Below are positions 3,684 to 24,076 of a stretch of DNA of 26,701 nt, piece by piece. The stretch spans positions 1 through 26,701 of IMG/VR virus record IMGVR_UViG_3300037087_000770; one strand, 5' to 3'. Origin of the DNA: a virus. The position numbers and the translations under genes were made by a program. Below the pieces are notes generated by a model. That model was given only the letters and a program-made list of their open reading frames with translations. It made no database searches and was not told the origin of the DNA. Each line of letters opens with the position of its first letter. Positions within the stretch are counted from its first letter, which is position 1.

Positions 3684-4577
3684 CGTCGACTCCTTTTGCT
3701 TGCAGGCCGCTCGAAGGGCGACCATCGCGGCATCCTGGCCTTCCACCGCGTCGATGAGGCCCATCTGCCGGGCCCGCTCCGCGATGTGGCTGCGGCCATC
3801 GGCGATCGCGCGGACTTTTTCCAGCGGCATCTTGCGGCCGGCGGCGACGGCCGCCAGGAAGTGCTCGTTCTGGTCGGTTACATAGCCTCTCAGGTACTCG
3901 AGTTGCTGGTCCGTGACCTCGGACCCCGGCGCGAAGGCGCCTTTGTAGGGTCCGGTGGAGATGACATGGACCTTCACGCCATCCTTCGCCAGCTGTCCGG
4001 ACGTATCCCGGACGACCGCCACCGTCCCGATGCTCCCGACCAGGCTGAGCGGCGACGCCGACAGCCGCCTCACCTGAACGCCGGGCCACAGGCTGCCCGA
4101 CGCCCCGACCCCCGAAATATGTCCATCGAGCGGTTTGACGGCGGCGAACGCCGCGACCTCGCTGGCCAGCTCCTCGGTGCCGCTTACGGACCCGCCCGGG
4201 GAATCAATCAGCAGCATCCCGCCACGGACGGCGGGGTCCTGCCTGGCCTGCCGCAGCGCCTGCCTCACGCGCACGGTGGAGGTTCCGAATTTCGACCTGC
4301 CCTTTTCGAGCGGCCCGACGAGGGAAAACTGCGCGATGCCATCATTCGTGAGGTGGTAGGCGACGTCCCCGTTTTCGTCGAGGGCTTGCGTGGCGGCACG
4401 CGGCAGCACCCAGACACCGGAGGCCAATTCTTCCAGGGCCTGCCGAAGGTAATCCGGTTCGATGAACCACGGCCCGAGATGCGAGGCGGCACAGGCCGGA
4501 AAATGCAGTTCGTCGGGGCCGGCCATCGCGACCGTGCGGGCGGCAATCTGGGCCAGCAGCGATTCGGGCTGAGGCAT
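3147..4577 (-). CDS. S49-family prohead protease with C-terminal scaffold
   Basis: This 476-residue protein is a fusion of a signal-peptide-peptidase-like (S49, lambda gpC type) prohead protease (about 80-290) and a scaffold-like tail (about 299-476). Catalytic candidates are Ser160 in GVGASGSLW and Lys212 in STGPYKGAF, with the expected LLIDSPGGSVSG strand-loop at 122-133 and LVGSIGTVAVV after the serine. Residues 300-365 are Pro/Ala-rich and disordered, followed by a charged helical region (WWSEGKTFEQAQALHADAIKAERDRLVAENAELRSR) typical of scaffolds. It overlaps the portal stop by one base (TGATG). It is expected to organise shell assembly, then cleave itself and the scaffold. Confidence 0.85.
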   Translation of the reverse strand: MPQPESLLAQIAARTVAMAGPDELHFPACAASHLGPWFIEPDYLRQALEELASGVWVLPRAATQALDENGDVAYHLTNDGIAQFSLVGPLEKGRSKFGTSTVRVRQALRQARQDPAVRGGMLLIDSPGGSVSGTEELASEVAAFAAVKPLDGHISGVGASGSLWPGVQVRRLSASPLSLVGSIGTVAVVRDTSGQLAKDGVKVHVISTGPYKGAFAPGSEVTDQQLEYLRGYVTDQNEHFLAAVAAGRKMPLEKVRAIADGRSHIAERARQMGLIDAVEGQDAAMVALRAACKQKESTMSVQHEASPGAVQPPLTAGESAPAPEASATTQATPPAPPTETARPPAPEAQVTPPTPSEAAVVVIDLVATTKADVQAECKKFITAFGPQGAAWWSEGKTFEQAQALHADAIKAERDRLVAENAELRSRTAAARGSPTPVSGTPAGGEPGFVSTQTLTEKVGPNIARVAAGLKFAKKSE

Positions 4578-6079
4578 CAGTTCTTCCCTCCCTGCGGGTC
4601 GCCCGTCCGGTCCTCGGAGATTGAGACGTTCGGAGGTTTGACGTCGGTCGGGAGACCCTTGCTTTTCAGGCGGGCCTTCTCATAGGCGAGTTCGTCGGTA
4701 ATCTCGTCGAAGTCGTCCCCCCGCTCCATGCACACCCGCTGCCGGCTGTTGATGGCGGCGGCGATCTCGATGGTGGCCGACGTGGCCTCCTGCACCGGGT
4801 TCCACCACGGCAGCCCCTGGGGCACCCAGGCCCAGCGGAGATCTCGGAGCTTCATGCCGTTCGGCAGCGTGAGCATCCCGTCGTCCATCGCCATCGGAAG
4901 CCGCCAGGAGACGAGGTTGTCGAGGAGGGCAACGAGGTTCTGGCGTTTGATCTTGGCGCCAAACAGATAATGGTTGAGCTCGCCGCGGCTGCCGAAGAAG
5001 TTGGTGCGTCTCCCGTCATAGAAACTCATGGGCATGTCGACGGACTTCAAGGCCGCCTCGATCATGAACGCCATGAACTCCTGGCTCTCCGTCGCCGGCG
5101 TGCCGGTCTCCAGCCATTTCGCGTCGTCGCCGGGATCGAGCTCGAGCTTGAACGGCCCCTTGCCCGGGTCCACCTGATACCGGGGCGACGCGGATGCCTC
5201 GTCGTCCGCGTCGGCCGTCTCTGGCGACACCTCGGAGACCATGCCCATCTCCTCCGCCGACTTTCGGAAGAAGATCAGGCCGAACAACTGGGAGATCTTG
5301 AGCTTCGCCAGCGCATAGTCCTTGGCCTCGTACAGGTCGCGGAGGTCATTGAGGGCGGTCGAGAGCGGCGTGACGCCGCGGACCTGGTCAAGCCGCTCGA
5401 AGTAGCCGTGGTGCTCGCACCAGGCCGCCGGCAGGAGCCGCTCGAACACGAAGCCCGACAGGCCGAAACGCTTGCAGACGCAGTACCGGATAGCCCGGCC
5501 GGCGTCGTCCACCTGGACGCCGTGCACCAGGCGAACGGACCCCGGCCACGGTTCGCCGTCCATAAACTCCGGCGGGAGGTTGGCGAGTTCCGGCGGGAGG
5601 CCGCCGAGGGGCGTGCGGATCCGGTCGCCCTCGATGCCCTGGACGCGGCCGTCGGCGATCTTGTGCACCAGGATATCCCCGTCCACGAGGGCGTGGCCCT
5701 CGACCAGGCGCACGAAGCGGTCCCTGCCGTGGCGGCGGGCCACGTCGAAGTTCTCGGGCCGCGACCACCACTTGATGAACTCCTCGACGGCGCCGTCGGC
5801 GATGGGGTTGCCGGTGCGGGCATGAAACTTGAAAGTGCTCACGAAATCGAGATGCTTACGCAGCGCCCAGGCGGCGACGGAGTAGTTGCGGCGAATGTCT
5901 CGTGCGGTCGCGACCATCGCCCGGCGGCGCTCCGGAAGGAGCGTCCGGTCCTCGCTCTGAAGGAGGATTTCAGGCGCCCGGCGGCGGTTGGTGTGGTCGA
6001 CCGCGTCGTAGCCAGCGCGGACGACGGGGGTGCCGTCCGCATCCAGCAATATCCGCCGTCGATCGGTTAGGGCCACCAC
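4577..6079 (-). CDS. Portal protein
   Basis: This is a lambda-type (gpB-like) portal of about 500 residues, the dodecameric ring through which DNA is packaged and to which the head-tail proteins bind. Typical stretches are YDAVDHTNRRRAPEILLQSED near the N-terminus, RDIRRNYSVAAWALRKHLDFVSTFKFHARTGN, LRDLYEAKDYALAKLKISQLFGLIFFRK, and the 'YDGRRTNFFGSRGELNHYLFGAKIKRQNLV' block with WRLPMA and QGLPWWNPVQEA. The start is probably GTG at 6079, sharing one base with the gpW-like stop (TAGTGG), or the next GTG at 6076. The frame extends upstream only through the preceding gene. An ATG at 5920 would delete conserved N-terminal sequence. Confidence 0.85.
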   Translation of the reverse strand: MVALTDRRRILLDADGTPVVRAGYDAVDHTNRRRAPEILLQSEDRTLLPERRRAMVATARDIRRNYSVAAWALRKHLDFVSTFKFHARTGNPIADGAVEEFIKWWSRPENFDVARRHGRDRFVRLVEGHALVDGDILVHKIADGRVQGIEGDRIRTPLGGLPPELANLPPEFMDGEPWPGSVRLVHGVQVDDAGRAIRYCVCKRFGLSGFVFERLLPAAWCEHHGYFERLDQVRGVTPLSTALNDLRDLYEAKDYALAKLKISQLFGLIFFRKSAEEMGMVSEVSPETADADDEASASPRYQVDPGKGPFKLELDPGDDAKWLETGTPATESQEFMAFMIEAALKSVDMPMSFYDGRRTNFFGSRGELNHYLFGAKIKRQNLVALLDNLVSWRLPMAMDDGMLTLPNGMKLRDLRWAWVPQGLPWWNPVQEATSATIEIAAAINSRQRVCMERGDDFDEITDELAYEKARLKSKGLPTDVKPPNVSISEDRTGDPQGGKN

Positions 6080-10798: not shown

Positions 10799-11596
10799 TC
10801 AGTCTGTATCCCCGATGCGCCCGGGCGGAGCACGCTCGGGCGTGTCTTCGGCCTGAGACTGGACGAAAGGTGGAGCGGCGTGTCGGAACTGACCCGACCC
10901 CTGGAACCTGGGAGGTTCCCGGCTCTCCCTTGAGCCCTCCGCCGCATCCTCGACCGTCCAGACGCAGTCGTCCTTCTTCGGGTAGTCCTGGCCCCAGCGA
11001 AATGGCGACTCACACAAGAGACGCTTCCGTAGGCCATGCCCGCACAGAAAACGGCAGTACCGGAACTGGCGGCCACGCACCCGGCGCAGACCCATGCTCC
11101 GGGTGAGCACCCGATCACGCCGGCCGCAGCGTGTGGTCACCTGCCTGGGATGCACGACCTCGTTGGCGGCCGTCACGTAGAATTCGGTTCGGATGAACCC
11201 GCCATAGAGCCAGTTGTCGGCCTGGTAGACAAAGCCGGGCTTGCCGCGCATGCCGTCGGCCCAGGAGAAGAGCACCATCCTGCCCGGCTCGCGCTCGCGG
11301 ATATATTCCCGGCAGAGCCTGAGGAAGTGGCTCTCGCCGTTACGCGGTTCCGAATCGAGCATGCACAGCCGGTTCAACTCATAGTAGTCGCTGGTCGTCA
11401 GACTCGGGAACAGGCGCTGGATGGTGTGCCGCGGGCGGACGCCGTAGCCCCACGACGCCACGCCCACCAGGTCGCCGCCGATGAAGCAGCCGAGCGAGAG
11501 CAGGCAATGCGGCGGCATGCGCACCGCGTAATGGTGCGCCGCCACGAACGCGGCCATCAGGCTTCGCGGAATGGGTCGGACATGGTACATGGTCAT
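10799..11596 (-). CDS. Mom-like DNA-modification / acetyltransferase-fold protein
   Basis: This 265-residue protein starts at ATG 11596, overlapping the methyltransferase stop (ATGA). A long upstream frame extension overlaps that gene and is discarded. Features of the Mom/GNAT-like family are HHYAVRMPPHCLLSLGCFIGGDLVGVASWGYG (21-52), the ELNRLCMLDSEPRNGESHFL block (73-92), and SWADGMRGKPGFVYQADNWLYGG (111-133). In phage Mu, Mom converts adenines to an N6-carbamoylmethyl form that blocks many restriction enzymes. The C-terminal third (150-265) is Arg- and Cys-rich and is not explained by the core fold. Coupling to a methyltransferase fits anti-restriction. It may act on DNA, but this is unproven. 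Confidence 0.65.
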   Translation of the reverse strand: MTMYHVRPIPRSLMAAFVAAHHYAVRMPPHCLLSLGCFIGGDLVGVASWGYGVRPRHTIQRLFPSLTTSDYYELNRLCMLDSEPRNGESHFLRLCREYIREREPGRMVLFSWADGMRGKPGFVYQADNWLYGGFIRTEFYVTAANEVVHPRQVTTRCGRRDRVLTRSMGLRRVRGRQFRYCRFLCGHGLRKRLLCESPFRWGQDYPKKDDCVWTVEDAAEGSRESREPPRFQGSGQFRHAAPPFVQSQAEDTPERAPPGRIGDTD

Positions 11597-12120
11597 GCCC
11601 CCTCCCGCTTGGCCTTGTTCCCCGTGAACTGCTCCCACCGCTGGACGATGACGTCCGCGTAAAGAGTGTCGAGTTCCATCAGGTAGGCACGGCGCCCCGT
11701 CTTCTCGGCCGCGATGAGGGTGCTCCCTGACCCGCCGAACAGGTCCAGAACGTTGTCGCCTGGGCGCGAAGAGTACTCGATAGCCCGCGTGGCCAGTTCC
11801 ACGGGCTTTTCCGTAAGGTGAATCATGCTGGCGGGGTTGACCTTCTTCACGCTCCACACGTCGGTGGCGTTGTTCGGCCCGAAGAAGTGGTGGCCGGCCC
11901 CCTCGCGCCAACCGTAGAAGCACCATTCGTGGTTGCCCATGAAATCTTTGCGCGTCAGGACGGGGTGCTCTTTGACCCAGATGACGGCCTGAGAGAAGTA
12001 GAGGCCGCAGCCCTTGAGGACCGGCGGGTAGTTGCCGCAGTTCGCATACCCGCCCCAGATGTAAAAACACCGGCCGGGCGCCAGCACACGCGCGATGTTG
12101 CCGAACCATGCCCGCAGCAT
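11593..12120 (-). CDS. C-terminal fragment of ParB-type DNA methyltransferase
   Basis: This is the part of the methyltransferase downstream of the amber codon. It is in the same frame as the N-terminal part and restarts at ATG 12120 (MLRAWFGNIARVLAPGR). It carries YIWGGYANCGNYPPVLK, the WVKEHPVLTRKDFMGNHEW...FYGW block, EKPVELATRAIEYSS, and motif I, NVLDLFGGSGSTLIAAE (residues 123-139). These are the C-terminal motifs of permuted (beta-type) N6-adenine or N4-cytosine methylases. SAM-binding motif I is here while motif IV is in the other fragment, so neither half can work alone. It overlaps the Mom-like start by 4 bases. Confidence 0.75.
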   Translation of the reverse strand: MLRAWFGNIARVLAPGRCFYIWGGYANCGNYPPVLKGCGLYFSQAVIWVKEHPVLTRKDFMGNHEWCFYGWREGAGHHFFGPNNATDVWSVKKVNPASMIHLTEKPVELATRAIEYSSRPGDNVLDLFGGSGSTLIAAEKTGRRAYLMELDTLYADVIVQRWEQFTGNKAKREGA

Positions 12121-12138
12121 CTTCTCGAACGCCTCGTC

Positions 12139-12141
12139 CTA
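12139..12141 (-). other. In-frame amber (TAG) splitting the methyltransferase
   Basis: The sequence reads ...AAC GAC TTC GTC TAG GAC GAG GCG TTC GAG AAG ATG: frame and family similarity continue across the stop (NDFV-stop-DEAFEKMLRAWFGN). I recall Ser at this place in relatives (FVSDEAF), and TCG to TAG is one base change. TAG is used as the ordinary stop by several genes here (terminase, capsid protease, cement, HARE-HTH), so the phage does not recode it. Confidence 0.85.
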
Positions 12142-12972
12142 GACGAAGTCGTTGACCAGGGGCCGGTCCTTGGGCCGCAACTTCTCGGTCGTGGCGTGCT
12201 TCACGCCCTGCCGCGCCACGTCAAACGACTGGTGGTGCGTGAGGCCGCCGCGGGCGCCCTCCGCGCGGCAGGTCTTGTTCAAGAGTTTCTTCTGCTGGAG
12301 GTCGTCGCCCGGGAACGACGACAGGCCGGCGGCGATGGCGTTGTTCGAGCGCGGCTCGACCTTCACGTTGTACGGCGGGTCGGTGTTGACGAGGTGGATG
12401 GCGGCGCCCGCCAAGAGCCGGTCCACATCGTCAGCGCTACTGCTGTCGCCGCAAAGCAGCCGGTGGTTGCCGAGGATCCACAGGTCGCCGAGCTTGGTGG
12501 TCGCCTCGTCCGGCGGCGCCGGCACGGCGTCAGGATCGGTCAGGCCCTCGTTACCGGGCGGCCCCAGCAGGCGGGCCAGGTCATCAGGACTGAACCCGAT
12601 GTCGGCCAGGTCCATTTCCTTCTCCAGGTCGCGGAGTTGCCGCGCCAGCGCCTCGTTGTCCCACTCCGCGAGTTCCGCGGTGCGGTTGTCGGCGATGGCA
12701 TAGCCGGTCCGATCGACGCCGGCAAGCCTCGTGCGGATGGCCGCGATGCGGGTCCATCCGAGTTGACGCGCCGCCAGGTAGAGGCCGTTTCCCGCCACGA
12801 TGACCCCTTTGGCATCAGCGATGATGGGCTTCTGCTGGCCGAACGCCAGGAGGCTGCCGCGAATGGCGTCCAGGTTTTCCTCTGGATGCAGCCGCGCGTT
12901 GGCCGGGTCCGGCGCGAGGCTCCCCATCGGCACGACGAATTTCTTCAACGACGCCGCAATCTGCTCCTTCAC
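12139..12972 (-). CDS. ParB-domain DNA methyltransferase, N-terminal part (interrupted)
   Basis: This is 277 residues of what would be a 459-residue enzyme. The ParB/Srx-like domain spans about 14-100 (LAPDPANARLHPEENLDAIRGSLLAFGQQKPII...GNGLYLAARQLGW). It is followed by LGDLWILGNHRLLCGDS (161-177) and catalytic motif IV, DPPYNV (198-203). The family methylates adenine N6 or cytosine N4 and is common in phages as self-protection DNA methylase. It ends at a TAG codon after FV, with the rest continuing in frame to 11593. The GTG at 12972 lacks a clear ribosome site and is the least certain boundary. Activity would need suppression or fragment complementation. Confidence 0.75.
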   Translation of the reverse strand: MKEQIAASLKKFVVPMGSLAPDPANARLHPEENLDAIRGSLLAFGQQKPIIADAKGVIVAGNGLYLAARQLGWTRIAAIRTRLAGVDRTGYAIADNRTAELAEWDNEALARQLRDLEKEMDLADIGFSPDDLARLLGPPGNEGLTDPDAVPAPPDEATTKLGDLWILGNHRLLCGDSSSADDVDRLLAGAAIHLVNTDPPYNVKVEPRSNNAIAAGLSSFPGDDLQQKKLLNKTCRAEGARGGLTHHQSFDVARQGVKHATTEKLRPKDRPLVNDFV

Positions 12973-13241
12973 TTTTTTGCTGCCGTTTCCGTCGCCGCCT
13001 GTATAGTTCGGGTGTCTCGACTGGGCGTCGAGCGTGCAAAATACCGCGGTGCTTGTAACACCACGGCGCTGCCGGACAGCGTCGCTGCCGCCGGCCGCGC
13101 TCGGCGCCTACTCCATCACCAAGTATCCATGCGTATATCCCCTTTGCCGGCTGCATCGCGGGCCGCTTCCGCTCAATAAACTCTACCGCCTTCGCCGCCT
13201 ATTCTGCGTAACCTCCGCCGAGGCCTCCGGCCAGGTAGTAC
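12973..13241 (-). promoter_or_regulatory. Non-coding leader upstream of methyltransferase
   Basis: No gene is convincing in these 269 bases on either strand. The region holds two stem-loops: CTCGAC-N5-GTCGAG (13016-13032), and an 8-bp stem with one mismatch, CCGCGGTG-N7-CACCACGG (13044-13066). It is less GC-rich than its surroundings, with several TATA-like words on the minus strand but no well-spaced promoter. It probably is the methyltransferase leader or the trailer of the nuclease gene. Confidence 0.4.
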
Positions 13242-19193: not shown

Positions 19194-20939
19194 ATGGGCA
19201 AGCAGAAGCAGACGCAGGACGCAGTGCCGGCGGCGACGACCGCCACAGAAGACGACCTGTCCTTGAGGTTTGGGACGACCATCGCCGACGTGCCCGTTGC
19301 CGACATCACCTCGGAGGGCGGCAACCACCGGCAGGGCGACGCCGACATCGAGACCCTGGCCAGGAGCATGAAGGCGGTGGGCCTCCTCCAGCCCGTGGGC
19401 GTCGTGCAGACGACCCCCACGGCCAAGATCGGCCCGGCGGGACCGTCCTACCGCATCCTCTACGGCCGGTGTCGCCTGGCGGCGGCCAGGAGCCTGGGCT
19501 GGGCAGTCATACGCGCCGTCGTCTATCCTCCGTGGGTGGCGATGGAGGCCCAGACGGTCCGGCGTATTGAGGCCACGGAGAACATCGAGCGGGCCGACCT
19601 CAACCCGGTCGAGGAGGTGCTCGTGGTCTCGCGGCTGCTGGAGTCGGTCTCCGGCCGCAAGGCCGACGTCTGGACCGATGCCTCGCCCGAACATCTCCAG
19701 CGCGTGGCGGACCTCCTGGTCCGCTCCGTCCCCTGGGTCCGCGACCGGGCATACCTGACGCGCCTCTGCCCGGCCGTCCAGGAGATGGTGGCCGGGCGCC
19801 GGCTGCCCCTGGGCCAGGCCCGCGAGATCGCGAAGCTCGCCTCCGCCTCGGAGCAGACGCAGGTCGCGAAGTGGACCGTCCACGACAGTGACTACCACAA
19901 CCCCGACTCAAAGGACGACATCCGCGTCGACTCGGTCCGCCACGTCCGCAAGGTCGTCGCCGAGCGGCTGTCCACGCTACGCGGGGTGCCGTGGGAGCCC
20001 GGCATGGCCTTCGCCGGCAGGCCGGCCTGCGATGGTTGCCCGGACAACTCGGCGCACGCGGTCCTCTTCGGGATTGACGCGACGGACCAGGCGCCCGAGG
20101 CCAGGTGCCTGAACCTGGTCTGCTACAACGCGAAGATGCGGGCGGCCGAGGCGGCCATCCGCAAGACCATCGCCCGCCTGAAGGGCAAGAAGGACGTGGC
20201 GCCGACGGCGTCGGCCGTCCGTGGCGCCAACGCACCCACTTACGTCAAGCCCGCGACCGTCGCGCGGCAACTCGCGCAGGCCCGGGGCATCAAGCCGGGG
20301 CCGTCCGCGGGCGCCAAGTCCGGCCCGAAGGCCATCCCCTATGATGAGCGGCCGGATACCAAGTTCCGCAACGCCCACGGCGATTGGAAGACCGGGGTCC
20401 GGGGCTTGGTGGCGGCGGCCATCGTCGCCAGCCACGAACGGCTTGCGTGTTTTCTTATGGCCCAGGCCGGACATACCCTGAGACGCCGCGTGATGTCGTG
20501 GGTCGCCACGCCCGACGAGAAGACCCGCAAGACAGTGGACGCGGTCCTGAAGCGCATGGCAAGGGCCCGGCCGGAGGACCAGGTCGCCCTGGCCGCCGAC
20601 ATAACGGCCGAGTCGCTCTTCGAGAAAGACCTTGGCGATACGCCCCTCTGGATCATCCGCCGCCTGGCGGGCCTCCTGGACGTAAATCTCCCGCGGGAGC
20701 CGGTCCTGGACGACTTCTTGCCGAAGGCCGCGCCCGAGACCACGGCGCCGGTCGCCGAGAAGGCGAAGAAGCCGAAGGCGAAGAAGACTGGCCGCGAGAC
20801 TTCCAGCGTGAAGATGGGGGGCGGCGCGCCCTGTGCCGGCGGTGGCGAGTGTGGCGTCTGCAACGAGTGCGAAGATGACGGAGAAAAAGCCCTTGACGGT
20901 CGGCGCGACGGTTGCCCTGATGGTGAACGATATGGATGA
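19194..20939 (+). CDS. ParB/RepB/Spo0J-family protein
   Basis: This 581-residue protein has AAAGGAG six bases before the ATG. The ParB N-terminal domain spans about 30-145: VPVADITSEGGNHRQGDADIETLARSMKAVGLLQPVGVV, the GRCRLAAARSLGW box (91-103) and TENIERADLNPVEE (128-141). A helical, HTH-like region follows (PWVRDRAYLTRLCPAVQEMVAGRRLPLGQAREIAKLA). A possible metal knot, CDGCPDNS...CLNLVCYN, lies near residues 281-315. The C-terminus is Lys/Ala-rich with CAGGGECGVCNEC. ParB proteins bind CTP and load on DNA. In phages they act in partition, replication or regulation. No ParA is present, so partition is unlikely. It overlaps the Dam-like gene. Confidence 0.75.
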   Translation: MGKQKQTQDAVPAATTATEDDLSLRFGTTIADVPVADITSEGGNHRQGDADIETLARSMKAVGLLQPVGVVQTTPTAKIGPAGPSYRILYGRCRLAAARSLGWAVIRAVVYPPWVAMEAQTVRRIEATENIERADLNPVEEVLVVSRLLESVSGRKADVWTDASPEHLQRVADLLVRSVPWVRDRAYLTRLCPAVQEMVAGRRLPLGQAREIAKLASASEQTQVAKWTVHDSDYHNPDSKDDIRVDSVRHVRKVVAERLSTLRGVPWEPGMAFAGRPACDGCPDNSAHAVLFGIDATDQAPEARCLNLVCYNAKMRAAEAAIRKTIARLKGKKDVAPTASAVRGANAPTYVKPATVARQLAQARGIKPGPSAGAKSGPKAIPYDERPDTKFRNAHGDWKTGVRGLVAAAIVASHERLACFLMAQAGHTLRRRVMSWVATPDEKTRKTVDAVLKRMARARPEDQVALAADITAESLFEKDLGDTPLWIIRRLAGLLDVNLPREPVLDDFLPKAAPETTAPVAEKAKKPKAKKTGRETSSVKMGGGAPCAGGGECGVCNECEDDGEKALDGRRDGCPDGERYG

Positions 20940-21849
20940 AATGACAACCATTGAGAAACCCCGCATCTCCGCCCTTGCGCCCTGGTTTGGCGGCAAGCGG
21001 ACACTCGCGCCGGCCATCGTCGAGGAACTCGGGCCCCACACGGCCTATTGGGAGCCGTTCTGCGGGTCCTGCGCGGTCCTGTTCGCAAAGCCGCCGCTCG
21101 CCTTCGAACAGATCAATGATCTCCACGGTGACCTCATCAACCTGGCGATGGTCTTGGCGTCCGACCGATGGCAGGACCTTTGCTCGCTGGCCCTGCGCAC
21201 ACTACCCGCCGAGTCGCTCTACTTGACGTGCCGGGACCGCCTTCGCAGCGAAAAGGACCGGCTCCCGCCCGCGTCGCCTGAACATGTCGGCCAAGCCGAC
21301 GTTGACCGCGCATGGGCCTACCTGGTGGTCTCGTGGCAGGGACTCAACGGCACGGCCGGCACCAACACCTACAACCAGCACTGGTCGGTGCGCTGGTCCT
21401 CGGCGGGCGGTAGGTGGGGCTGGTCTCGCGTGCCAGAGACTATTCCATGGTGGCACCAGCGGCTGCGGCACGTGACGATCCTTCATCGTGACGCCTTCGG
21501 GGTTCTCGACAAGATCCGTGATGCCGCCGGCGTCGCCATCTACATTGACCCGCCTTATGTCGCAAAGTCGGACCGGTATCTGCACGACTTTGAGCCCGCG
21601 GACCACGAACGCCTGGCCCGATCGCTGTCCCGCTTCCGCGAGGCCCGCATTGTGGTCTCCTATTACGACCATCCCGAGATCCGGAGGTTTTACGAAGGCT
21701 GGACCATCCGGCCGGTGGTCGGTGCCAAGAAGGCCCTGTGCCACTCCGCAAACAACGGCCACAAGGGCCAGCATCCGGCCCCGGAACTTCTTATCTGCAA
21801 TGGCCCGTCACTGTTACGTAACACCGAGACGCCGCTCCTGGAGGCATGA
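20932..21849 (+). CDS. dam: Dam-type (D12 class) adenine-N6 methyltransferase
   Basis: This SAM-dependent DNA methylase has the order of alpha-class Dam enzymes: motif X PWFGGKR (17-23), motif I EPFCGSCAV (41-49), a target-recognition region, and catalytic motif IV DPPY (206-209) in VAIYIDPPYVAKSDRYLHDF. The product has 305 residues from ATG 20932, which has GGTGA five bases upstream. ATGs at 20875, 20920 and 20941 are also in frame, so the start is uncertain by up to 19 residues. The product probably methylates adenines to protect phage DNA or time replication. Its stop overlaps the initiator start (ATGATG). Confidence 0.8.
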   Translation: MDEMTTIEKPRISALAPWFGGKRTLAPAIVEELGPHTAYWEPFCGSCAVLFAKPPLAFEQINDLHGDLINLAMVLASDRWQDLCSLALRTLPAESLYLTCRDRLRSEKDRLPPASPEHVGQADVDRAWAYLVVSWQGLNGTAGTNTYNQHWSVRWSSAGGRWGWSRVPETIPWWHQRLRHVTILHRDAFGVLDKIRDAAGVAIYIDPPYVAKSDRYLHDFEPADHERLARSLSRFREARIVVSYYDHPEIRRFYEGWTIRPVVGAKKALCHSANNGHKGQHPAPELLICNGPSLLRNTETPLLEA

Positions 21850-23105
21850 TGCCGGCACGAATGCCTGACAACGAGGTGTGGGGACAATGGTCGGCCCGGT
21901 TAAACGCGGAATGCGGCCCGCTGGCGGCGGCGGCCTGGGCGGCCATCCGCCGCCGTATGGGGCCGCGTGATGAGCCGGCGGCGATCGGCGTGGCCGACCT
22001 GGCCGCCGGCCTCGCGAGAAGTGAGCGGACCGTCCGCGAGGTCCTCCGCCGCCTGGCCGCTACTGGATGGCTGGTGGTCCAGCGGACCGGCCGACAGGGC
22101 CTCCTGGCGGCCGTGGTATCCACCGCCGAACATATTGAGACCGGCGAGAAGTTGCCGCTCAGACCGGCAGAAACCTGCCGCTCAGACCGGCAGAAACCTG
22201 CCGCTCAGACCGGCAGAAACCTGCCGGTCGCGCCGCCCCCCCCTATACACCCCCCTGTATGTGGAGGAGAAACAGGGAGAGAGGGGGAGAGAGAGGCGAC
22301 TGCCCCGCCCCCCCCTGCCGCGCGCGTCGTCGAAACGACCACGGCGGCGGGGCGGGCGGGCGGCATCGAGGACTTGGCGGCGGAGTTTCGGCAGCGCCAG
22401 GTGACGCCGGAGCCGCTGGAGGCAATCATGGCGGTCCTGGCCGAGGACCTGGCGCTCAAACGATACCGACTCGACGACCTGCGGCTGGTCATCGAGTCCC
22501 TGCCGGCGATAGACGCGAGGGCCTGGCGACTACGCGAACGGGTGCCGGCCCTCGCGGCGGCCGTCCGTGGGGAACGCATGAGGGACCGGCTGAGGACCAT
22601 CCACGCCGAGGTGCTCACCTCAGCCTGGCGCCGATCGGCGCCGTCGAGAAGAGCCACGGTGGAGCGGGTGGACGTTGCCGGCGGGCGACTGGTCCTCGTG
22701 GAATGGCAGGACGGCTGCCGCGGCGATCGGCTGGTCATCGAGCGTCTAGAAGACCTCGACTGCTGGGCCTTCGGCCTGGCGGAGCCGACGCTCTTTCCCT
22801 TGGGCGACGGACCTCCGCCAGCGGGAAATGGCCCCACGCCCCAGAGTCACCCCGTCGTCCGCCTTCCAGAGCAGCTAGAAGCCCGGGTCGCCGCGGAGCG
22901 GCTGTTGGCAGCGGTCGGCCACGCCACCTACGCCACCTGGTTTCAGGGGGTGGGGTGGCAGGTTGACGGAAGTGTGGTCGCTATCCATCCACCCAACCAG
23001 TTCTTGGCTGACTACCTGCGGTCGCACTTTCTACCAGCCCTGACCGCGGCTGGAATACAACTACACGCACGCGTGGGCACCCCAACAGAAGGAGGAAGGA
23101 AATGA
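21846..23105 (+). CDS. Replication initiator-like protein (wHTH plus DnaA-N-like domain)
   Basis: This 419-residue protein has an N-terminal winged helix (about 20-95: AAAAWAAIRRRMG...IGVADLAAGLARSERTVREVLRRLAATGWLVVQRTGRQG). A Pro-rich linker follows. The middle helical region is about 170-260. The C-terminal stretch of about 345-405 (LEARVAAERLLAAVGHATYATWFQGVGWQVDGSVVAIHPPNQFLADYLRSHFLPALTAA) resembles the helicase-contacting domain I of DnaA. An initiator that binds DNA through the wHTH and recruits the host helicase through the C-terminus fits. The gene itself carries three 23-bp direct repeats in the linker. It overlaps both neighbours by 4 bases. Confidence 0.7.
   Translation: MMPARMPDNEVWGQWSARLNAECGPLAAAAWAAIRRRMGPRDEPAAIGVADLAAGLARSERTVREVLRRLAATGWLVVQRTGRQGLLAAVVSTAEHIETGEKLPLRPAETCRSDRQKPAAQTGRNLPVAPPPPIHPPVCGGETGREGEREATAPPPPAARVVETTTAAGRAGGIEDLAAEFRQRQVTPEPLEAIMAVLAEDLALKRYRLDDLRLVIESLPAIDARAWRLRERVPALAAAVRGERMRDRLRTIHAEVLTSAWRRSAPSRRATVERVDVAGGRLVLVEWQDGCRGDRLVIERLEDLDCWAFGLAEPTLFPLGDGPPPAGNGPTPQSHPVVRLPEQLEARVAAERLLAAVGHATYATWFQGVGWQVDGSVVAIHPPNQFLADYLRSHFLPALTAAGIQLHARVGTPTEGGRK
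22155..22223 (+). repeat. Three 23-bp iterons: candidate replication origin
   Basis: Three identical 23-bp units begin at 22155, 22178 and 22201 (CCGCTCAGACCGGCAG followed by AAACCTG). A degenerate fourth unit lies at 22132-22154. Each unit junction makes the inverted repeat CGGCAG-AAAC-CTGCCG. Because 23 is not a multiple of three, the protein reads the repeat in all three frames, so it is not a protein repeat. Beyond it lie C-runs, ATACA-C6-TGTAT and a strand-asymmetric GA-rich stretch (22262-22300). Iterons in an initiator gene recall lambda ori in gene O. Confidence 0.75.
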
Positions 23106-24076
23106 AGCAGATTGAAGTCTTCACCCAGGAGGATCTGGACCGTGTCCTCCGCGACGGTCACAGGGCCGTCTGCATCGGTGGCGAATTACGTCTGAAGACG
23201 ATGGGTACAGAGGCCCCCCACATCATCGTGTGTCCGGGCGCCATGGTGCACGTGGAGGCCAGGGATTCGAGCCAGCCGCACGTGGAGGCCTGGGATTCGA
23301 GCCAGCCGCGCGTGGAGGCCTGGGAGTCGAGCCAGCCGCACGTGGTGGCCTGGGAGTCGAGCCAGCCGCACGTGGTGGCCAGGGATTCGAGCCAGCCGCA
23401 CGTGGTGGCCTGGGAGTCGAGCCAGCCGCACGTGGTGGCCAGGGATTCGAGCCAGCCGCGCGTGGAGGCCTGGGAGTCGAGCCAGCCGCACGTGGAGGCC
23501 TGGGATTCGAGCCAGCCGCACGTGGAGGCCTGGGATTCGAGCCAGCCGCACGTGGAGGCCGACGGACTTTCCTTACTTCACGTTCGCGGCCCGGTCGAAG
23601 TTCGAGCTTCCGATCAGGTGGTTCTCAATGTCGAGGGTAGCCAAGCGCGAGTGGTTGGCGGCATTGTCCGCGCCGTCCCGGCTGTTCTCTCGGCCGAGGC
23701 ATGGTGCAAACATTATGGTCTGGAGGTTTCGGGCGGAGTGGTAATCTTATTAAAGGCGGTCGATTACTCGTTTACGAGCCCGAACGGCGTTCTGTATCTG
23801 CCCGGGTCAACGCCGGAGGCCAAGGATTGGGATGGGGGCCGCAAGGAGTGCGGAGGTGGTCTCCATTTCGGCCCATCCGTGTCGGCCGCGCGCGGCTTCA
23901 ACCCCGATGCCCAGAGGTATCTGGCGTGTCCGGTGCAACTTTCGGATTGCCGGCCTCCCGGCGAGAACGACAGGTATCCGCAGAAGATTAAGGCTCGCGG
24001 CTGCTGCGCGCCAGTGTACGAGGTCGACATCTTCGGACGCCCTGTCGCCGCGAAGACGGAGGGCCAGTCCACATGA
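23102..24076 (+). CDS. Decapeptide-repeat protein with C-terminal phage domain
   Basis: This 324-residue protein starts with an N-terminal cap (MKQIEVFTQEDLDRVLRDGHRAVCIGGELRLKTMG...IIVCPGAMVHVEA). Ten perfect-length decapeptides of the form HVEAWDSSQP cover residues 50-149. A degenerate unit and 'VRGPVEVRASDQVVLNVEGSQARVVGG' continue the beta rhythm, so a right-handed beta-helix is likely. The C-terminal domain (about 205-310: KAVDYSFTSPNGVLYLPGS...DWDGGRKECGGGLHFGPS...RGCCAPVYEVDIFGR) is one I associate with phage proteins (DUF7666-like). The role is unknown; a DNA mimic or a scaffold is possible. It is coupled by ATGA overlap to both neighbours. Confidence 0.7.
   Translation: MKQIEVFTQEDLDRVLRDGHRAVCIGGELRLKTMGTEAPHIIVCPGAMVHVEARDSSQPHVEAWDSSQPRVEAWESSQPHVVAWESSQPHVVARDSSQPHVVAWESSQPHVVARDSSQPRVEAWESSQPHVEAWDSSQPHVEAWDSSQPHVEADGLSLLHVRGPVEVRASDQVVLNVEGSQARVVGGIVRAVPAVLSAEAWCKHYGLEVSGGVVILLKAVDYSFTSPNGVLYLPGSTPEAKDWDGGRKECGGGLHFGPSVSAARGFNPDAQRYLACPVQLSDCRPPGENDRYPQKIKARGCCAPVYEVDIFGRPVAAKTEGQST
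23249..23548 (+). repeat. Ten 30-bp tandem repeats in the beta-helix protein gene
   Basis: Ten contiguous units of exactly 30 bp follow CACGTGGAGGCC-TGGGATTC-GAGCCAGCCG with few variants (H/R at position 1, E/V at 3, W/R at 5, D/E at 6). The unit length keeps the frame, and because no unit has a stop in other frames, both strands stay open here. There are no spacers, so this is not a CRISPR array. Copy number is expected to vary between relatives. Confidence 0.9.

Follow-up and report, generated by a model that had tools for sequence, protein, structure and literature searches.

Why would a phage gene carry, within its own coding sequence, a tandem array of short repeats whose length is not a multiple of three? 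The question arises from one gene of the window, as we term the whole 26,701-nucleotide stretch of DNA analysed here, which is a virus record of IMG/VR with 68% GC. The first-pass annotation had described three exact 23-bp repeats and a degenerate fourth in a Pro-rich linker, and had read them as a likely replication origin inside an initiator gene. The repeats are confirmed both by the sequence itself and by Tandem Repeats Finder, which gives a period of 23, 3.9 copies and a 94% match at 22138-22226. We consider it probable that the array supplies the iterons of a theta-type phage replication origin that lies within the gene for the cognate initiator. The gene and the repeat copies are arranged as follows.

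21846-23105, + strand: putative replication initiator gene, 419 aa (open reading frame; Pfam; PHROG).
22138-22160, + strand: iteron 1, degenerate, AGACCGGCGAGAAGTTGCCGCTC, 5/6 dyad pairs (from the sequence).
22161-22183, + strand: iteron 2, dyad CGGCAG-AAAC-CTGCCG at 22165-22180.
22184-22206, + strand: iteron 3, dyad at 22188-22203.
22207-22229, + strand: iteron 4, dyad at 22211-22226, 9-bp arms GACCGGCAG-AAAC-CTGCCGGTC.

Cut in the GCCGCTCAGACCGGCAGAAACCT phase, 22155-22223 consists of three exact 23-bp units. Cut in the phase that runs from AGACC to CTC, the copies start at 22138, 22161, 22184 and 22207, the first being degenerate with five substitutions relative to the unit and the last having a single base changed (...CCGGTC). 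Each exact unit holds the 6+4+6 dyad CGGCAG-AAAC-CTGCCG (starts at 22165, 22188 and 22211), as had been claimed for every junction; that description fails for the degenerate first copy, in which the dyad is imperfect, with five of six pairs kept, pair 5 broken and pair 6 changed from G-C to A-T on both sides. Across the whole 26.7-kb window, dyads with 6-bp arms and a loop of 3-5 nt that recur with the same arms within 200 bp are confined to the array. Furthermore, the single strand of 22136-22265 folds at -31.9 kcal/mol (z = -6.2, with none of 200 dinucleotide shuffles as good), and the folded array strand forms three to four adjacent hairpins. An origin nested in this way would be expected to comprise, within the initiator coding sequence, at least three to four iterons of about 18-23 bp, each with dyad symmetry, and this is the arrangement that we find.

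The copies lie in codons 98-121 of the gene. With a period of 23, indeed no multiple of three, their starts fall in codon phases 1, 0, 2 and 1 and they encode three different peptides; the array is therefore not a peptide repeat. It could nevertheless be a neutral minisatellite, in which slippage duplicated a 23-bp piece within a disordered, frame-tolerant Pro-rich linker and three units preserved the frame. The copies are so nearly identical that a recent duplication is suggested, three 23-bp units amount to 23 codons exactly, sequence constraint on the linker is probably low, and the adjacent gene holds another tandem array (30-bp units, 23248-23560). Such a history does not account for the dyad present in every unit, kept at five of six pairs even in the diverged copy 1, where one pair has changed on both sides, nor for the matching dyad arrays that we describe below at the corresponding position of unrelated initiators. 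The neighbouring array, moreover, differs in kind from the iterons because its unit is a codon multiple and it has no repeated dyads. We regard neutral slippage as quite unlikely.

If the array is an origin, the protein encoded around it should look like an initiator. Its domain order is a winged-helix-turn-helix (wHTH)-like N-terminus, the repeat-encoded Pro-rich linker, a middle domain and a C-terminus resembling domain I of DnaA; the two end domains are located as follows.

21930-22136, + strand: winged-helix-like DNA-binding domain, about aa 29-96 (weak Pfam wHTH, PHROG and Foldseek matches).
22896-23045, + strand: DnaA-domain-I-like domain, aa 351-400 (Pfam DnaA_N over the cut-off; Foldseek).

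The N-terminal wHTH had been asserted without qualification, and what we recover is a set of weak matches of aa 29-96 to the winged helices of PaaX, GntR and SelB, all of them under the Pfam cut-off. In PHROG this stretch matches 'replication initiation' families with E near 0.03, among them PHROG 391, 'replication initiation O-like', at aa 50-89 (E = 0.028); the structural model is of low confidence (pLDDT 52) and its winged-helix Foldseek matches are weak (E about 0.5 or worse). The C-terminus stands more firmly and agrees with the DnaA-N-like end proposed earlier: it matches PF11638 (DnaA_N) with E = 2.6e-7 and 30.7 bits, over a curated cut-off of 24.6 bits. For a single-sequence model of moderate confidence (pLDDT 67), the five top PDB matches in Foldseek are all structures of DnaA domain I, including 2e0g, 4tps and 2wp0, with DciA, a DnaB-binding loader, further down the list. 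Since these Foldseek E-values are modest, 3e-3 at best, the Pfam sequence match carries more weight than the fold match. No DnaA-like PHROG family matches the C-terminal domain. The initiator protein contains no AAA+, primase or Rep_3 domain, and has no Pfam match to Rep3_N/Rep3_C or to Phage_rep_O; the last of these, with the faint O-like PHROG match, upholds the earlier remark that the protein does not look like O by sequence.

These domains also bear on whether the array is an autoregulatory operator, through which the wHTH protein or another regulator controls transcription of the operon with no origin function. The best Pfam wHTH matches are indeed to transcription regulators (PaaX and GntR), and dyad sites are typical of operators. 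However, some 290 bp of coding sequence precede the array, a search of its surroundings gave no sigma-70-like promoter, and a DnaA-domain-I-like end is not expected in a plain repressor. A purely regulatory array is in our judgement unlikely. Iteron-bound initiators often repress themselves, so an operator role can coexist with an origin.

Beyond the last iteron lie three further features, two of which, the GA-rich skewed tract and the ATACA/TGTAT stem, had already been remarked upon and are present at the positions given here.

22245-22260, + strand: small inverted repeat, ATACA (22245-22249)-CCCCCC-TGTAT (22256-22260) (sequence; 5-bp stem in the fold).
22263-22299, + strand: purine (GA) tract with a 17-nt mirror repeat, GAGAGAGGGGGAGAGAG, at 22277 (longest purine/pyrimidine run of the window).
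22243-22283, no strand assigned: least stable 40-mers near the array, candidate unwinding element, not AT-rich (nearest-neighbour energies).

The GA tract begins within 35 bp past the iterons and is 37 nt long with two interruptions, 95% purine and 38% AT. No purine or pyrimidine run in the window is longer, and none of 200 dinucleotide shuffles reaches such a length. In duplex instability the first 40-mer past the C-run (22243-22282) ranks at the 99.3rd percentile for the window, whose GC content is 68%. Chance alone would place an equally unstable stretch this close on the 3' side at about 4-5% of positions; a lambda-like unwinding element at 22243-22283 is therefore only suggested. There is no classical AT-rich unwinding region beside the iterons, the purine tract included, no DnaA box near consensus in the array region and no clear turn of the GC skew at the array. 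No RNA element or tRNA was found.

The genomic surroundings raise another possibility. The start of the initiator gene overlaps the stop of a D12-type adenine methyltransferase gene (20833-21849), and two genes upstream of the initiator lies a ParB-like gene (19194-20936) with ParB_N and HTH_ParB matches in Pfam and a ParB-like PHROG match at E about 1e-17. As parS sites are dyads that lie near parB, the array might be a partition or centromere site for this protein. Against this, ParA was not recognised in the window, and a related phage, G001 (records L015 and L018-L020), separates the two genes. It shares the terminase (43%), the methyltransferase (64%) and the ParB-like protein (40% over 507 aa) in a different gene order, and has no relative of the initiator and no repeated CGGCAG dyads in the stretches read of its 44.7-kb record. 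Within those stretches the array therefore follows the initiator and not ParB, and we hold a partition site to be highly improbable. The same related phage has 8-bp tandem repeats of the GTGACGAA type at several places. A ParB/methyltransferase-like gene on the minus strand of the window (10802-13107) is split over two frames, 12142-13107 and 11596-12138; its counterpart in L015 is one 508-aa open reading frame (3724-5250), which suggests a frameshift or a real interruption in the window.

Downstream, the stop of the initiator gene overlaps the next ATG at 23102, which opens the gene of a repeat protein (23102-24076) with no Pfam match. Here the ten copies of the 30-bp repeat encode the 10-residue QPHVEAWDSS. 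The window ends with a tyrosine integrase. At the start of the record (1-363) a 183-bp unit occurs twice with a 92% match, which may reflect a terminal duplication or an error of assembly. The same phage is present in PMZT01000088.1 (L023), a 22-kb contig of the Planctomycetia MAG fen_1346, in which residues 1-110 of the gene copy are 100% identical to the initiator. This contig breaks off inside the iteron array, so the number of repeat copies is that of the IMG/VR assembly only. The hosts are soil bacteria, probably planctomycetes, with MAG binning giving a lead rather than proof.

Apart from this near-copy the initiator stands alone in the collections that we searched. No relative was detected in IMG/VR with the whole protein, its C-terminal part or its N-terminal part, in INPHARED at E up to 5, or in PLSDB, and 392 planctomycete-phylum genomes yielded nothing beyond DnaA or short weak matches. 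In a DnaA_N search of 119 planctomycete-phylum genomes, the seven short-frame cases inspected have the domain in their N-terminal half and resemble host DnaA or DnaA-like proteins, and BLASTN of the linker against phages returned chance matches, the best in a Rhizobium phage protein that lacks such a layout. Likewise, the literature searched, with partial coverage, held no phage initiator of this architecture.

Because homologues were missing, we scanned IMG/VR for the tandem dyad core itself, strictly as tandem GCAGAAAYCTGC and more loosely as tandem CAGAAAYCTG; a variant scan on the DNA strand largely repeated the first in reverse complement. The strict scan returned six contigs, four after removal of near-duplicates, and half of these four carry phage initiators with the repeats directly after the helix-turn-helix (HTH). 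One, L009, has an HTH_36 domain and a replication initiation PHROG match at E = 3e-16, and its repeats are spaced by 27 bp, a codon multiple, so that they may be a peptide repeat; in the other, L012/L014, the spacing is 22 bp (L012). The looser scan returned 68 contigs, mostly with codon-multiple repeats in genes other than initiators. Among its matches, L087/L094 encodes an HTH protein that matches replication PHROGs, with repeats in the post-HTH linker whose dyad, CGCCAG-AAAC-CTGGCG, is one symmetric base pair off that of the window, and in L083 five copies precede a Rep_3 initiator. DnaA_N was absent from the records of these comparison phages.

How much can be drawn from these matches is bounded by the way in which they were obtained. 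Both scans took their query from the core of the window itself, so finding that core elsewhere is not evidence. What counts is where the matches fall, and that the three base pairs lying outside the queried core are fully symmetric in each case with differing bases (CGG/CCG in the window, GGG/CCC in L009 and CGC/GCG in L087). A wHTH common to the N-termini of the window and L087 was sought and BLAST found no similarity, so their likeness reflects convergence or very deep kinship. In L083 the copies are five 21-22-bp iterons at 4738-4880 with the core ACAGAAATCTGT, and this record is a plasmid-like phage or a misfiled plasmid. Paired CAGAAATCTG dyads 23 bp apart occur in L054, L077 and L091, the last with G/C-run spacers that resemble those of L087. 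The 17-bp dyad also occurs singly in seven IMG/VR contigs, where its copies are scattered and unrelated.

Taken together, the tandem dyads in mixed codon phases within the linker and the purine tract on their 3' side constitute a lambda-like anatomy, and the scan matches in phage initiators place comparable arrays in comparable genes. Both support the proposal of a replication origin within the initiator gene, and from them we infer its activity and its binding by the encoded protein. The wHTH, probably dimeric, would bind each CGGCAG-AAAC-CTGCCG dyad, and an O-some-like complex of three to four dimers may assemble on the array. The bound array would then strain the adjacent weak, purine-skewed stretch, with the DNA opening at 22243-22299. 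The DnaA-domain-I-like end probably recruits the host helicase: domain I of E. coli DnaA binds DnaB (PMC5448010), and C-terminal modules arrayed on the iterons might bring in host DnaB directly or via a host loader, from which theta replication would start. Binding to the array may also repress the initiator gene.

It is tempting to go further and envisage a single-protein initiator that combines a wHTH acting on dyad iterons in its own gene with a relocated C-terminal DnaA domain I, that recruits host DnaB with no phage loader and that opens a GC-rich, purine-skewed stretch in place of an AT-rich one. This fuller scheme we put forward tentatively, as possible though doubtful. Were the nested origin to prove true, it would add to the known origins and initiators a defined pair from a phage whose GC-rich host lineage is little studied, combine the lambda layout with a DnaA-derived helicase-recruiting end, and offer a compact and testable one-protein replicon. 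Comparison with L009, L012 and L087 also suggests a recipe for finding phage origins, namely tandem dyads in the linker that follows a wHTH, best at a spacing that is not a codon multiple.

Several known systems share parts of this design. The initiators of Rep_3 iteron plasmids are winged-helix proteins acting with tandem iterons, and the Rep_3 locus of L083 has the same dyad core, here imposed by the query; the window's protein, however, has no Rep_3 match and its iterons lie inside the gene rather than upstream. Bacterial DnaA shares domain I with the C-terminus by both DnaA_N match and fold match, but carries it at the N-terminus, and DnaA_N is the sole part of DnaA matched by Pfam, the AAA+ ATPase and the domain IV helix-turn-helix being absent. 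In SPP1, oriL lies within gene 38 and the initiator gp38 binds direct repeats inside its own gene (PMC6316719), as we infer for the window; SPP1 has in addition an AT-rich element and a separate loader, gp39, whereas the window shows no gp38-like family match.

The closest parallel, and the one drawn at the outset, is the lambda origin, which lies in the middle of O and whose iterons are bound by a dimeric initiator (PMC7466680). Our lambda control (J02459) shows four annotated 18-bp iterons with dyad arms around AAAA, in O codons 117-139 and phases 0, 2, 2 and 1, and directly past them a 40-bp tract with 75% purines and 78% AT. Lambda, its Stx phage relatives and the window have in common dyad iterons of about 20 bp in several codon phases, placed in the linker after the DNA-binding domain, and then a strand-asymmetric purine-rich tract on the sense strand, so that the parallel holds. 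They differ in the AT content beside the iterons (78% in lambda vs 38% in the window), in the proteins, O and the window's initiator having no Pfam sequence similarity and the latter ending in a DnaA-domain-I-like module, and in the neighbouring gene, which in lambda encodes a P-type helicase loader and in the window is not P-like by Pfam. Origins whose iterons lie within an initiator gene are accordingly of a classical, already known kind; what differs here is the initiator, which is unrelated and has a relocated DnaA domain I, and the GC-rich setting.
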